64,000 bases of DNA from assembly GCF_024345835.1 (NCBI RefSeq), contig NZ_JAGQBW010000002.1, forward strand, positions 124,001 to 188,000, read 5' to 3'. The first letter of the stretch is position 1. Each line of letters starts with the position of its first letter. Origin of the DNA: Synechococcus sp. HJ21-Hayes (GTDB lineage Bacteria > Cyanobacteriota > Cyanobacteriia > PCC-6307 > Cyanobiaceae). Below, one piece after another: positions 1,165 through 8,235 of this stretch. The notes under the pieces were generated by a model that saw only the letters and a program-made list of their open reading frames with translations, was not told the origin of the DNA and ran no database searches. The position numbers and the translations under genes were made by a program.

Positions 1165-2613
1165 ATGACTGTTGCCTCGCCTGCCCCGCGGCGCCGCCAG
1201 CCGCGGAGTTTGCAGGAAGCGAGCCTGTTGGATGCCCCCGAACTGCTGCTTCGCAAGATTCGGGGGTTGTCCTCCAGCCGCACGCTCACCTGGCTGGCCT
1301 GCATTCCCATCGCCCTACTGGGCCTGGGTCTGTTCAACCTGTCGGCCCATGCCGCTGAGCTGCCCGAGCTCACACCGGCCTTCCTGGCCAACAACATGTT
1401 CCTGTTGATCTGCGCCGCTCTGGTGATCTTCATGAACGCCGGCTTCGCCATGGTGGAAGCCGGGATGTGCCGCCAGAAGAATGCCGTTAACATCCTTGCC
1501 AAAAACCTGATCGTCTTCGCCCTAGCGGTGACGGCCTACTGGTTCATTGGCTACAAGGTGATGTACAACGCCGATTGGATCATCCCCGGCTGGTTCAAGT
1601 TTGGTGGCCTGTTCTTCGATCCCACCGTCACTCCGGAGATGGTGACTGAGGGTAAGCTGGTACCCAGCGTTGATTTCCTCTTTCAGGCTGCCTTTGCTGG
1701 CACCGCCGCCACGATCGTTTCCGGCTTGGTGGCTGAGCGCATCAAGTTTGGCGAGTTCGTGATCTTCTCGCTGGTGCTGGTGGGCATTCTCTATCCCATC
1801 TCAGGATCCTGGCAGTGGAACGTGGGTGAGGGCTGGCTCAACAAGCTGGGCTTCATCGATTTCGCCGGCTCCACCGTGGTGCACTCCTTCGGTGCCTGGG
1901 CTGGCTTGATTGGGGCCATCCTGCTTGGACCTCGCATCGGCAAGTTCAGCGATGGCAAGCCCCAGGCCATCCCCGGCCACAACCTGGCGATCGCCACCCT
2001 GGGTTGCCTGATCCTCTGGCTCGGTTGGTATGGATTCAACCCCGGCTCCTGGCTGTCCATGGCGCCGGAAGTTCCTTACATCGCCGTAACCACCACCCTC
2101 GGTGCCGCCGGTGGCGGCATTTCCGCCACCCTGCTCAGCCAGTTCACTGGTGGCAAGCCGGATCTCACCATGACCATCAACGGCATCCTGGCCGGTTTGG
2201 TGGGTGTTACTGCGGGCTGCGACGGCTTCTCGATGCCTGCTGCCTGGGTTGTTGGTTTCATCGCCGGCATCCTGGTGGTGTTCTCAGTGGCCTTCATCGA
2301 CGGCCTCAAGATCGACGATCCTGTGGGTGCGTTCTCCGTGCACGGCACCTGCGGCATCTGGGCAACCCTGGCCGTGGGGCTGTTCAACACCGATAAGGGT
2401 CTGCTCACCGGCCATGGCTTCAGCCAGCTCGGTATCCAGATCGTGGGTGTGCTGGCCTTCGCGATCTTCGCGATCGTTTCCTCCTGGATCGTCTGGTCGA
2501 TCATCGGAGCGATCTTTGGTGGCATCCGCGTCACCGAGAAGGAAGAGATCGAAGGTCTCGATATCGGCGAGCACGGCATGGAGGCCTATCCCGATTTCGC
2601 CTCTGCCAAATAG
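1165..2613 (+). CDS. amt1: Ammonium transporter, Amt1-like
   Basis: 482-aa Amt/MEP/Rh family channel for ammonium uptake across the cytoplasmic membrane. A basic N-terminus is followed by a signal-like hydrophobic stretch ending AHA near residue 63, then about eleven helices. The family segments EAGMCRQKNAVN (98-109), STVVH (H240) and FSVHGTCG (H393) are present; H240 and H393 fit the twin-histidine pore pair. The sequence differs clearly from the second Amt at 6377 and looks closer to the AMT1-type group often used for nitrogen-scarce conditions. It stands alone with its own upstream NtcA-like site and a strong terminator downstream. Start ATG at 1165 gives normal family length. Confidence 0.95.
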   Translation: MTVASPAPRRRQPRSLQEASLLDAPELLLRKIRGLSSSRTLTWLACIPIALLGLGLFNLSAHAAELPELTPAFLANNMFLLICAALVIFMNAGFAMVEAGMCRQKNAVNILAKNLIVFALAVTAYWFIGYKVMYNADWIIPGWFKFGGLFFDPTVTPEMVTEGKLVPSVDFLFQAAFAGTAATIVSGLVAERIKFGEFVIFSLVLVGILYPISGSWQWNVGEGWLNKLGFIDFAGSTVVHSFGAWAGLIGAILLGPRIGKFSDGKPQAIPGHNLAIATLGCLILWLGWYGFNPGSWLSMAPEVPYIAVTTTLGAAGGGISATLLSQFTGGKPDLTMTINGILAGLVGVTAGCDGFSMPAAWVVGFIAGILVVFSVAFIDGLKIDDPVGAFSVHGTCGIWATLAVGLFNTDKGLLTGHGFSQLGIQIVGVLAFAIFAIVSSWIVWSIIGAIFGGIRVTEKEEIEGLDIGEHGMEAYPDFASAK

Positions 2614-3404: not shown

Positions 3405-6194
3405 CTACGCGTCGGCGCTGGCCTTGCGGCGCCAGAGACGCCAGAGCTTCTCCACTTCCAGATAGAGGAAGAACAGCAGGCTGAAGCCCACACAGATCAG
3501 CAGGTCATGGCCACTCAGGGGGGTGGTGCCGAAGAACCGTGCCAGCGATGGCACATAGAGAAGCAGCAGTTGCAGGCCTGTGGTGAGGGCCACCGCCCAG
3601 AGCAACCAGGGATTGGAGAAGGGTGCCACCTGGATCAGCGGCAGGTCACTGCGGGCCGAGAGGGCATGGCCCATCTGGGCCAGGCAAAGGGTGGTGAACA
3701 CCATGGTTTGCCAGGGGGCCTCCTGCCGGGAGGCATACAGCATCAGGGCGATCACGATCACGGCAAACACCACGCCAACCCTGAGGATGTAGCTGCCGAT
3801 GCCGCGGGCAAAGATCGATTCACCGGGCTCAGCGGGAGCGCGTTGCATCAAGCCCTCCTCTCCCGGTTCCAGCGCCAGGGCGAGGGCTGGAACGCCGTCT
3901 GTCACCAGATTCATCCAGAGGATCTGCAGGGGCGTGAGCGGAACCCCGAGCAGCCCCACGAGCGGGGCGGCGGCGATTGTGATCAGCTCGCCCACATTGC
4001 TGCCCAGGATGTATTTCACGAAGCGGCGGATGTTGGCGTACACGAGCCGCCCTTCCTCCACCGCATTCACGATGGTGGCGAAGTTGTCGTCGAGCAGCAC
4101 CATATCGGCGGCCTCCTTGCTCACCTCCGTGCCGGTGATGCCCATGGCCACACCGATGTGGGCCTGTTTCAGGGCCGGGGCGTCATTGACGCCGTCGCCG
4201 GTCATGGCCACCACCTGGCCGTTGGCCTGAAGGGCCTTCACGATCCGGAGCTTCTGCTCGGGAGGAACCCGGGCATAGACGCTGCAACGGGCCACCACAT
4301 CCCGCAGTTGGGCGTCGTCGCAGGCTTCCAGTTCCCGGCCGAGCACCACTTCGCTGTCGGCGCTGCTCAGGCCGATGGCCGCTCCAATGGCCCTGGCGGT
4401 GAGGGGGTGATCGCCGGTGATCATCACCGGCCGGATGCCCGCCTCGCGGCAGGTGGCCACGGCCTCACCCACTTCCGGTCGTGCTGGATCCAACTGGGCC
4501 ATCAGGCCCAGCAGCACCTGGCCATCGAGCTCATGCTCCGGGCTCTGGTGATGGGGAGCACAGGCGAAGCCCAGCACCCGCAGGCCGGAGGCCGCGAGCT
4601 CCCGGGCCTGGTCCAGCCACCACTGGCGCTGCTCGTCGCTGAGCGGCACCACGCCGGAGCCATCGATCCAGCGATCGGAGTGCCCAATGATCACCTCAGG
4701 GGCGCCTTTGCTGATCAGCAATCGCGAAGAGCCGCTGGCAGTGCCACCGAGAGGCGCTTGTAGCTGGCCACTGGGATCATCAACCCACACGGCCATCAAT
4801 TGGCGTTCAGAGCTGAAGGGGATTTCGGCTGAGCGGCGGTAGTGGCTGCGCAGCTCAAAGCCATCGATTCCGCCTTTTGCCGCCACCACCACCAGGGCTC
4901 CTTCGGTGGGGTCCCCCAAGATGTCCCAACGGCCATCCGCGTCCCGCTTGAGCTCGGCATCGCTGCAAAGCACACCGGCCTGGAGCAGCAGTTGGCTGGC
5001 GCCTGCCGGGCTGCCGGGGGTCACGCCCACCGGCGGCACCAGGGCGGTTGTGGTCATGGTTCCCACCGGTTCGTAGCCCTGCCCGGCCACCACCACCGAT
5101 TCAGAGCCCACCCGCAGTTCCTGCACCACCTGGCGGTTCTGGGTGAGGGTGCCGGTTTTGTCGGAGCAGATCACCGTTACCGAGCCCAGCCCCTCCACGG
5201 CCGGCAGACGGCGGATCAACGCGGCCCGCCGCACCATCCGTTGGGTGCCGATGGCCAGGGTCACGGTGATCACCGCGGGTAGACCCTCAGGAACGATGGC
5301 CACCGCCATCGACAGGGACACCTCGAGCAGATTGAGCAGGGGCTGGCCGAGCAACCAGCCCAGCAGCACCACAACAGCCACCAACACCAGGGCACTACCC
5401 ACCAGCACCTTGGCGAGGCCATCGAGCCGTTCCTGAAGTGGGGTGCTCTCGCCGCCTGCGGTGTTGATCAGTTCGGCGATTTGTCCCAGTTCGGTGTCCA
5501 TGCCCGTGGCGGTTACCACCGCCAGGCCACGGCCCCGCACCACCTCCGTGCCCTGGAACAGGCAGTTCTGGCGCTCCAGAACAGGGGTTTCTGCTTCCAG
5601 CACCAGGCTGGCCTGTTTGAACACCGCTTCGGCTTCGCCGGTGAGGGCCGCTTCACGCACCCCCAGGTCGGCCACCTCCAGCAGGCGTGCATCGGCGGGA
5701 ACCCGGTCGCCGGCCTCGAGGCGAATCACATCGCCGGGAACCAGCAGATCGCTGGAGAGTCGATCCCAGGTGCCATCCCGGCGGGCTTGCACCATGGGTT
5801 GGGCCATATCCCGCAGGGCAAGCAGCGCCTGTTGGGCCTTGCTCTCCTGCAAGTAACCCAGTAGGCCATTGAGCACCACGATCACGAGGATCGCAATGGC
5901 ATCCTTCGGAAACTCTTGCTGATGCAGCGACACGGCCGCTGACACGGCCGCCACCGCCAGCAACATGATCAGCATCACATTGCTGAATTGATCCCAGAGG
6001 ATCTGCAAGCTGCTCCGGCCAGTCGCCAGTTCCAGCCGGTTGGGGCCGCAGTCCGCCAGCCTGCGGGCGGATTCGGCCGTGCTGAGGCCCTTGCCACTGG
6101 CCTGCAACCGCTCCAGGCAGCCTTCGCCAGTGAGGGCATGCCAGGCGGTTGGAGTTGGACGGGTCAATCGTGGAAGGAGCCCCGAGCCCCACAT
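3405..6194 (-). CDS. pacL: Cation-transporting P-type ATPase, P2A (Ca2+) type
   Basis: 929-aa P-type pump. Order: N-terminal cation-ATPase domain (residues 15-75), actuator domain with TGEA (185-188), M4 motif VPEGLPA (301-307), phosphorylated Asp345 in DKTGTLT, nucleotide-binding domain, hinge [12 protein letters not shown], and six C-terminal helices. Ca2+-site residues of the SERCA family are kept: Glu in PEGL, Asn and Glu in SNVGE (M5), and Asn, Thr, Asp in MNLVTDG (M6), supporting Ca2+ export. Related Mn2+ or mixed P2 pumps cannot be excluded. It lies between the two ammonium transporter genes on the opposite strand, with no obvious functional tie. Length is normal for the family. Confidence 0.9.
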
Positions 6195-6376
6195 GCTGTC
6201 GAATCGACCATAGGGCGAGCGAATTCAGGGCTGGTCAGCCGCCAGCGGCGAGACCCAAGGGCTATGGAGTTGATTTGAGCTCATTCCCTGGGGAAAATCG
6301 TTGCGACGGATACAGGGCGGGACACCGTGAGGGTGGAGGGTCTAAGAGCGAAAGACAAGAGAGGTTGCTCCCCGAC

Positions 6377-7828
6377 ATGGCCCATGTCCCCCTGGCGGGC
6401 GGTGGTCCTACACCACTGGCCGTTTTTGATCGCTTCCGTACTAAGGCGTTAGCGCGCGTTCAGGAGCCTGAGCTCAAGCGCTACGCGGTGATGTTGCTCG
6501 CCGCTGGTGCAGGCCTACTGCCCCTGATGGCCGGCTCGGCCAAGGCGGCCCTGGCCAAGGTGCCCACCGATGGTGCGGACACCCTGCTGATGCTGATGGG
6601 TTCGGCGCTGGTGTTGCTGATGACCCCAGGCCTGGCGTTCTTCTACGGCGGCTTCACCCGCGCCAAGAACGTGCTCAACACCATGATGATGAGCTTCTTC
6701 CTCATGGGGCTCATCGGGGTTGTGTGGGTGGTGCTCGGCTACTCCCTCTCCTTCGATACCGGCTTTGGCAGCCCCTTCATCGGCGGTCTTGGCCAGATGT
6801 GGCTGAATGGCGTTGGCGGTGAACTGGGTGATGCACCCCTGGCCGATGGCTTCGCAATTTCGGCGTCTTCCTTTGCCCTGTTCCAGGGCATGTTTGCGAT
6901 CATCACGCCGGCCCTGATCTCTGGTGCCCTCGTGGAGCGCATCAACTTCAAGGCGTGGTTCTGGTTCTCGCTGCTGTGGAGCCTCTTCATCTATTGCCCC
7001 ATGTGCAAGATGGTGTGGGGTGGCGGTTATCTCGGCCCCTTCGGTGAGATCGGCGCCATCGACTTCGCCGGCGGCACCGTTGTGCACATCGCCGCTGGTG
7101 TTGCTGCCCTGGTGGCCACGGCAATTGTGGGACCTCGCACCAACTACCCCGATAGCAAGCGCCCACCCCACAACGTGCCCTTCATCCTGCTGGGTGCTGG
7201 CCTGTTGTGGTTTGGCTGGTTCGGCTTCAACGGCGCCAGCTATTTCGCCGCCAAAGGCGCTGGCTTCTCCTTCCTTGCCACCACCCTCTCGGCCTCGGCC
7301 GCGATGCTCACCTGGTGTTTGATCGAGTGGTTCCGTGATGGCAAACCCACGGCCGTGGGTGCTGCCACCGGCGCCGTGGCTGGGCTGGTGGGGATCACTC
7401 CCGCGGCGGGCTTTGTGTACATGCCCCAGGCCCTGATCATCGGCATTGCCACCTCTGCGGCTTGCTACATCGCCGTTCAGGTGAAGGCTGCCATCAAGTT
7501 CGACGACTCCCTGGATGCCTATGCCGTCCACGGCGTGGGTGGCACCGTTGGGGCCCTGCTCACCGGCCTCCTGGCGGTTCCGGCCCTGGTGCCGGCCGAT
7601 TACTTCCCCAAGTCTGCCGAGATCCTCGCCAACGGTGGCAACGCTGCCCTGTTTGTGGCCCACATCAAAGCTGTTCTGATTTCCTACGGCTTCGTGGGCA
7701 TCGGCACGGCCATCATTCTCTGGATCGTGGGTGCTGTAGTGGGGCTGCGCGTCACTCCTGCCGAGGAAGAGCGCGGCCTCGACTTCGTTGCCCATGGCGA
7801 AGAGGCTTACGACCCCATGACCTACTGA
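6377..7828 (+). CDS. amtB: Ammonium transporter, AmtB type paired with PII
   Basis: 483-aa Amt family channel. ATG 6377 is chosen because longer readings enter the ATPase promoter region; the resulting N-terminus has a basic part and a signal-like helix ending near GSAKA (residue 57). Canonical features: GLAFFYGGFTRAKNVLN (85-101), pore histidines H237 (GTVVH) and H385 (YAVHG), and the loop FNGASYF. It is followed 10 nt later by a PII gene; in the well-known amtB-glnK arrangement the PII protein binds and blocks the transporter when nitrogen is sufficient. A degenerate NtcA-like GTT-N8-TAC sits at 6300-6313. This is the second and clearly divergent Amt in 8 kb. Confidence 0.95.
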   Translation: MAHVPLAGGGPTPLAVFDRFRTKALARVQEPELKRYAVMLLAAGAGLLPLMAGSAKAALAKVPTDGADTLLMLMGSALVLLMTPGLAFFYGGFTRAKNVLNTMMMSFFLMGLIGVVWVVLGYSLSFDTGFGSPFIGGLGQMWLNGVGGELGDAPLADGFAISASSFALFQGMFAIITPALISGALVERINFKAWFWFSLLWSLFIYCPMCKMVWGGGYLGPFGEIGAIDFAGGTVVHIAAGVAALVATAIVGPRTNYPDSKRPPHNVPFILLGAGLLWFGWFGFNGASYFAAKGAGFSFLATTLSASAAMLTWCLIEWFRDGKPTAVGAATGAVAGLVGITPAAGFVYMPQALIIGIATSAACYIAVQVKAAIKFDDSLDAYAVHGVGGTVGALLTGLLAVPALVPADYFPKSAEILANGGNAALFVAHIKAVLISYGFVGIGTAIILWIVGAVVGLRVTPAEEERGLDFVAHGEEAYDPMTY

Positions 7829-7838
7829 GACGGCAGCC

Positions 7839-8177
7839 ATGAAACAGATCACTGCTGTCATCCGCCCCTCCAAGGTGGATGCCGTCAAAACCGCCCTCGT
7901 CGCCATCGACGTGGTGGGCATGACCATCAACGATGTACGCGGCTTCGGCCGTCAGAAGGGCCAGGTGGAGCGCTACCGCGGCAACGAGTTCACGGTGGAC
8001 TTTCTGCCGAAGGTCCGCATCACCACCGTCGTTTCCGACGACAAGGTGGAGGCGGCGCTCACGGCCATCACGGAGGCGGCTCGAACCGGTGACATCGGCG
8101 ACGGCAAGATCTTCGTGACCTCCGTGGACACGGTGGTGCGCATCCGCACCGGCGATCGTGGCGAAGCGGCCATCTGA
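7839..8177 (+). CDS. glnK: PII signal protein, GlnK-like paralogue with altered T-loop
   Basis: 112-aa PII trimer subunit. The fold signatures are present: RGFGRQKGQ (34-42) before the T-loop and TGDIGDGKIFV in the B-loop that binds ATP/ADP with 2-oxoglutarate. Canonical cyanobacterial GlnB has Ser49 (phosphorylated) and Tyr51 (uridylylated in proteobacteria) in RYRGSEYTVEF. Here the loop reads RYRGNEFTVDF, with Asn49 and Phe51, so neither known modification can occur. The amtB-glnK order implies a role in gating the adjacent transporter through ligand binding alone. A separate canonical glnB is expected elsewhere. Start ATG 7839 is unambiguous. Confidence 0.92.
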   Translation: MKQITAVIRPSKVDAVKTALVAIDVVGMTINDVRGFGRQKGQVERYRGNEFTVDFLPKVRITTVVSDDKVEAALTAITEAARTGDIGDGKIFVTSVDTVVRIRTGDRGEAAI

Positions 8178-8205: not shown

Positions 8206-8235
8206 AAGCCCCTGGCCTTCGGCGAGGGGCTTTTT
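8206..8235 (+). terminator. Rho-independent terminator after amtB-glnK
   Basis: AAGCCCCTGGCC, TTCG-type loop, GGCGAGGGGCTT, then TTT: an 11-bp stem with one mismatch and a T-run, 28 nt past the glnK stop. It closes the amtB-glnK operon before the kimA-like gene. Confidence 0.88.

Follow-up and report, generated by a model that had tools for sequence, protein, structure and literature searches.

A PII paralogue encoded behind amtB in a cyanobacterial family, probably a GlnK-type valve of the adjoining ammonium channel

The PII gene considered here, from Synechococcus sp. HJ21-Hayes, probably encodes the own valve of the ammonium channel whose gene precedes it. We analysed the 64,000-nucleotide stretch of DNA that contains the gene (the window) together with PII and Amt loci from related genomes, and the reading that we hold with good confidence, drawn from sequence and from analogy with known systems, is that of a GlnK-type PII serving the upstream AmtB by ligand sensing, with the genome's canonical GlnB keeping NAGK and PipX.

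Results

The translated PII frame (Table 1) reads Asn-Glu-Phe at residues 49-51, just as the first-pass annotation had it, and the protein carries the PII superfamily domain, matching Pfam P-II (PF00543) with E 1.5e-29 and 102.7 bits against the curated cut-off of 25. Its best homologues of solved structure are, judged by their sequences, cyanobacterial PIIs. The frame upstream encodes an ammonium channel (PF00909, E 1.6e-107; TIGR00836, 406 bits against a cut-off of 343) whose C-terminus ends in ...EEERGLDFVAHGEEAYDPMTY; its stop lies 10 nt from the PII start and both frames are intact, which confirms the pairing with amtB that had been proposed for this gene. Six terminator-like sites were found in the region against 1.9 expected in shuffles, and the one directly behind the PII gene would fit as the terminator of an amtB-glnK operon. 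An amt1-type transporter gene lies further upstream in the window. Several members of the genus likewise have amt1 and the amtB-glnK pair as neighbours, and in G150 and G189 the distance between them is about 0.25 kb; this neighbourhood suggests an ammonium-uptake cluster.

Table 1. Positions of the PII gene, its neighbours and related genes (window coordinates unless a contig is named)
Feature	Position	Strand	Remark
amt1-type ammonium transporter gene	1165..2613	+	no adjoining PII gene in own genome
Cation P-type ATPase gene	3405-6194	-	between amt1 and amtB
NtcA-like box GTTGCGACGGATAC	6300..6313	+	one mismatch to GTAN8TAC; 77 nt before ATG at 6377
amtB, ammonium channel gene	6377..7828	+	483 aa if ATG at 6377 is the start (start unproven)
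glnK-like PII gene	7839..8177	+	112 aa; translation, no internal stop
PII codon Ser11	7869-7871	+	
PII codon Asn49	7983-7985	+	
PII codon Glu50	7986-7988	+	
PII codon Phe51	7989-7991	+	
Terminator-like hairpin and T-run	8214..8235	+	directly 3' of PII gene; consensus match only
Canonical glnB (L001)	C1:203052-203366		
Short PII relative (L003)	C12, about 118.4 kb		beside an Sbt_1 gene
Short PII relative (L004)	C12, about 97.1 kb		beside another Sbt_1 gene
Unlinked AmtB (L006)	C1, around 244083-245282		

The genome (assembly 97.7% complete) holds four genes of the P-II family. The first-pass annotation had counted on a second PII gene, a canonical glnB with Ser49, and a search of the genome finds one: a GlnB with Phe11 and Ser49-Glu50-Phe51, to which the window PII is 62% identical. 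The remaining two are short PII relatives, each adjoining a different bicarbonate-transporter gene (Pfam Sbt_1), so that this genome seems to pair bicarbonate transporters with PII-like partners too. The count of two Amt transporters in that annotation has to be revised, since the window does hold two and the genome has a third, an AmtB on contig C1, beside the amt1-type protein and the PII-linked AmtB. This unlinked AmtB reads VVELASG for the VVHIAAG of the linked one, and its Glu replaces what we take to be the first of the twin pore histidines. Split control of ammonium uptake, at which that annotation hinted, is plausible. A single copy of pipX is present.

PII proteins were collected from 240 loci (L001-L240), made distinct and sorted into classes. 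Class K, the paralogue (58 distinct proteins), was defined partly by a residue other than Phe at position 11, and class B, GlnB, by Phe11 together with S-E-F at residues 49-51; the family here comprises genomes labelled f1 and those recorded as Prochlorococcus, Synechococcus, Cyanobium and the like. Directly 5' of the gene for each of the 58 class K proteins, in the same orientation, lies amtB or its 3' end, and an Amt upstream on the same strand was found for none of 105 distinct cyanobacterial Phe11 PIIs, 103 of which could be followed upstream for 700 nt or more; in one out-of-family row an AmtB is on the opposite strand. Sorting by linkage instead of by residue gives the same picture: all 61 amtB-linked PIIs of the family (58 of class K and three of the sister class K2) are without Phe11.

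In 50 of the 58 cases the upstream amtB has an open frame of 380 aa or more, and in four, at contig ends, it cannot be judged (L061, L120, L129 and L132, of which L120 shows a gap in amtB). In the remaining four, each with at least 1300 nt of upstream DNA covered, it is broken or reduced to a 3' remnant (L031; L032 with L074 and L082; L065; L127 with L188). The PII frame behind these broken genes is open, and all four read Thr49-Glu50-Phe51. In these relatives the PII has therefore either survived the loss of its channel gene or works with another Amt, and its tie to this one channel is not exclusive, or has ceased to be.

The first-pass annotation had treated Asn49 and Phe51 as replacements for the modifiable Ser and Tyr of canonical GlnB, and only the first half of this survives. 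Among 91 distinct Phe11 PIIs of the family, residues 49-51 are S-E-F in 90 and S-E-Y in one (L175); of 14 Phe11 PIIs from cyanobacteria outside the family, 13 have S-E-Y and one has A-E-I. Since the genome's own GlnB has Phe51 as well, this residue is the family norm, and we rule it out as a special loss of the paralogue. Asn49 does stand in place of Ser49, although not uniformly in the class: class K has Asn in 38, Thr in 17 and Ser in three at position 49, and Phe in 51, Tyr in six and Ile in one at position 51. Variability at 49 and 51 had been named beforehand as evidence against the claim, and it is present in part, in that position 49 varies within the paralogue clade. Residue 11 is Ser in 48, Thr in four, Ala in three and Gly in three. 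Linkage to amtB and loss of Phe11 are stronger signals of the paralogue than residues 49 and 51.

Besides 11 and 49, eleven positions part class K from GlnB (profile overlap below 0.15), and at five (3, 5, 15, 59 and 73) the two have no letter in common; we found no literature on the signature residues 52 and 54. Much of the protein is nevertheless shared. Arg9, Phe36, Gln39, Gly41, Glu44, Tyr46, Arg47, Lys58, Gly84, Gly87, Gly89, Lys90, Arg101 and Arg103 are invariant in class K (58/58) and in all 90 GlnBs compared, and Arg45, Glu50 and Glu85 are mostly retained in class K. The invariant set includes the residues for ATP/ADP and 2-oxoglutarate (Gln39, Lys58, Gly87, Lys90, Arg101 and Arg103), which the window PII has as well. 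For Lys58, Gln39 and Gly87 these roles are described in an excerpt of PMC6908673. Measured against a GlnK, the window PII adjoins amtB and has the pore-plugging Arg47, a residue which, being found in every GlnB compared, does not tell GlnK from GlnB; measured against canonical GlnB, it has Asn49 for the phosphorylatable Ser49 and Ser11 for the NAGK contact Phe11. In seven chosen pairs, dN was 0.07-0.12 and dS 0.38-0.83, values (dN/dS about 0.10-0.18) that speak of purifying selection.

Of the 251 family genomes sampled, at least 43 were verified to carry the paralogue. Its sister class K2 came from 14 further genomes picked for having two PII matches, five of which carry it; amtB lies upstream in three of the five, and two have no Amt within 1.3 kb. 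Outside the family, in a phylum sample of 292 genomes, paralogue hits are at most 61% identical among the matches listed, and none of 29 AmtB loci has a PII behind amtB within flanks of at most 1.5 kb, one of the 29 having a PII divergent from amtB. Within the genus (21 genomes), the window-type AmtB is full or nearly so in nine, our genome and eight others at 92-94% (that of G244 in two pieces); G227 has a 111-residue piece at 94%, and the Amts of the remaining eleven do not exceed 57% among the matches listed. A PII follows this AmtB in all nine genomes, so the pair is kept or missing as a unit within the genus.

Upstream of amtB, 38 loci offered sufficient DNA together with a reference motif that could be recognised. 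Measured from this fixed point in amtB, 35 of them have a GTAN8TAC-like box, allowing one mismatch at most, 165-205 nt upstream (L054, L123 and L125 do not); the loci are related, and the 35 are therefore not independent observations. A smaller second peak, at 140-149 nt, comprises 10 of the 38. Exact boxes occur in six of 52 upstream regions, against a shuffle mean of 2.5 and a maximum of 6. The NtcA consensus is that of an excerpt of PMC3898017.

A third PII class, with the T-loop YRGVK[V/I/M/L], Glu11 in 21 of 23 and neither Phe11, Ser49 nor Tyr51, was found in 23 of the 251 family genomes (E 1e-40 or better) and not in the window's own (loci L052, L179-L186 except L180, and L280-L301). Of its 23 loci, 22 have it divergent from amt1; the exception (L284) has only 491 nt upstream. 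Five genomes (G069, G082, G158, G223 and G243) have matches to both this class and the paralogue, and in Cyanobium sp. FGCU52 (L052) the order is amtB, glnK and then a third-class PII divergent from amt1. One long-branch PII (L180, in G054), with Thr11, A-E-Y and no Amt within 1.3 kb, fits no class.

As to origin, a 63-row PII tree (112 columns) unites class K in one clade (100/92), joins it with K2 (98/92) and places both, weakly, with the GlnBs of the family (84/73); a first tree that included long-branch rows had split class K into two pieces. In an AmtB tree of 32 rows, built by a quick method, those linked to a PII form a single clade (SH-aLRT 99), and on this tree PII position 3 requires one change and position 49 seven. 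What appears to fit best is that glnB was duplicated within the family and that the copy then paired once, and lastingly, with amtB. The alternative is that the paralogue descends not from a cyanobacterial glnB but from a proteobacterial-type glnK acquired by horizontal transfer, an origin which would be compatible with a GlnK-AmtB explanation of function and which we regard as unlikely while taking it seriously: the AU test does not reject a grouping of the paralogues with PIIs of proteobacteria (p-AU 0.244; with K2 included, 0.331), the distribution is patchy, and positions 3 (Q/M/L) and 5 (mostly T) resemble those of the amt-linked PIIs L234 and L236 and of E. coli GlnK. However, the best tree puts K and K2 beside the family GlnB, K2 retains the GlnB-like Lys3/Glu5 even though amtB-linked in three of five, and none of the 29 AmtB loci from outside the family has a PII behind amtB within the flanks covered. 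The resemblance at positions 3 and 5 is itself no clean GlnK signature, because the chain 1hwu, named PII PROTEIN, a Herbaspirillum GlnB, has Q3/T5.

Discussion

If the window PII is a GlnK-type protein, its action can be sketched as follows. The amtB and PII genes would form one operon, as the 10-nt gap and the constant pairing suggest, and the position-conserved NtcA-like box points to its being switched on under nitrogen limitation via NtcA. With the arrival of ammonium and a drop in 2-oxoglutarate, the ADP-bound PII trimer would extend its T-loops into the AmtB trimer, where Arg47 would plug the pores and uptake would stop; MgATP and 2-oxoglutarate would free the PII from AmtB again. These steps are modelled on the conserved residues and on two precedents: the Arg47 of E. 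coli GlnK inserts into the pore of AmtB (excerpt of PMC6243067), and in Synechocystis PII binds Amt1, S49D weakening the binding (excerpt of PMC6603209). Covalent modification at 49 or 51 would have no role. An excerpt of PMC4285133 reports that the Y51A variant of E. coli GlnK keeps its nitrogen-dependent control of AmtB and that the residue which proteobacteria and actinobacteria modify is Tyr51, only nitration being reported in Anabaena.

The division of labour with GlnB would follow from the substitutions at 11 and 49. PII contacts NAGK through Phe11 and Thr83 (excerpt of PMC6908673), and the hydroxyl of Ser49 forms a hydrogen bond with NAGK (excerpt of PMC4285133). Loss of Phe11 and Ser49 would be expected to weaken or abolish NAGK binding by the paralogue, and canonical GlnB would thereby keep NAGK and PipX. 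The paralogue may also bind other Amts or PipX; Arg45, Glu50 and Glu85 are mostly retained.

We consider it improbable that the paralogue is instead a second general PII, overlapping GlnB in the control of PipX, NAGK and Amt and paired with amtB for co-expression under nitrogen limitation only. The retained ligand pocket and most of the T-loop residues would suit such a role, as would the open frames behind the four broken amtB genes, and Synechococcus WH5701 is described as having two PIIs and two PipX in a network that names NAGK and NtcA (excerpt of PMC7344720). Yet the NAGK contact Phe11 is missing from all 61 amtB-linked PIIs, and pipX has not been duplicated along with them: two pipX matches occur in three of the 251 family genomes (G153, G229 and G245), and only G153 is among the 43 verified paralogue carriers. 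The correlation between pipX and glnB duplications stated in PMC7344720 is not borne out for the amtB-linked class in this sample, and we reject a link to pipX duplication.

The reading of the first-pass annotation, in which what defines the paralogue and decides its function is the loss of T-loop modification sites, is very doubtful. Ser49 is indeed absent from 55 of 58 class K proteins, and a charge at position 49 weakens Amt1 binding (excerpt of PMC6603209). However, Phe51 is common to the family GlnB, position 49 changes seven times on the AmtB tree and three members retain Ser. Moreover, phosphorylation is reported not to have been found in Prochlorococcus PII despite its conserved Ser49 (excerpt of PMC4285133), so that loss of Ser49 in the paralogue need not be lost regulation and may change little here. 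The claim of control by ligand alone fares better than this account of it: with Ser49 and Tyr51 absent and the ligand-binding positions intact, it would be the natural reading, although what the first-pass annotation took as its mark is in half shared with GlnB.

A decaying duplicate without function, which the patchy presence within the genus and the broken amtB in four of 58 relatives might suggest, is scarcely credible beside the low dN/dS of the seven pairs, the invariant functional residues, the constant pairing and the intact amtB and PII of the window.

Returning to the GlnK-type reading, the third class allows a tentative extension of it, that in this family each type of ammonium channel can gain its own PII, in one case the Phe11-less amtB-linked protein and in the other the distantly related class divergent from amt1. 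GlnB would thereby be freed for NAGK and PipX, and loss of Phe11 might be the step that severed the Amt-serving copies from arginine-synthesis control. Cyanobacteria usually carry a single PII (excerpt of PMC4285133). A family whose extra PIIs mostly lie beside ammonium channels and lack one NAGK contact residue is a natural experiment in the splitting of a hub protein into specialists. It comes with predictions for single residues (Phe11, Ser49), with members of one genus that have or lack the pair, and with some few strains in which the channel gene is broken and the PII is left.

Several known systems resemble the one described here. The canonical cyanobacterial GlnB shares the ligand residues but has Phe11 and Ser49 and is not amtB-linked, in contrast to the amtB-linked paralogue with Ser11 and Asn49. 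In Synechocystis, too, a PII sits on an ammonium permease at low 2-oxoglutarate and uses its T-loop face (excerpt of PMC6603209), a behaviour that here is suggested by sequence; there, however, a GlnB with phosphorylatable Ser49 acts on Amt1, whereas here a separate PII would act on an AmtB-type permease. The nearest published case is Synechococcus WH5701, another picocyanobacterium with two PIIs, GlnB-A and GlnB-B (Laichoubi et al. 2011, via an excerpt of PMC7344720), which differs from our genome in having two PipX rather than one. Our searches of the literature found nothing related on WH5701 glnB with an ammonium transporter and, judged by titles and the openings of abstracts, none on an amtB-linked PII in Cyanobium.

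The closest parallel in design is the GlnK-AmtB pair of E. coli, which has in common with ours a PII gene paired with amtB, Arg47, the ligand residues and Thr at position 5, and from which we consider it likely, by analogy, that the same pore-plugging mechanism operates here. The differences are that E. coli GlnK has Phe11 and a uridylylated Tyr51 where the window PII has Ser11 and Phe51, and that the gene order is amtB then PII here and glnK then amtB in E. coli. The window PII also stays below the NCBIfam cut-offs for equivalogs of enterobacterial type (127.8 bits against 181 for PRK10665 and 132.8 against 202 for PRK10858) and is therefore not filed as an orthologue of enterobacterial GlnK. 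The pairing of amtB with a PII gene is, in sum, a known kind of system, classic in other bacteria, in an unusual place, the cyanobacteria.
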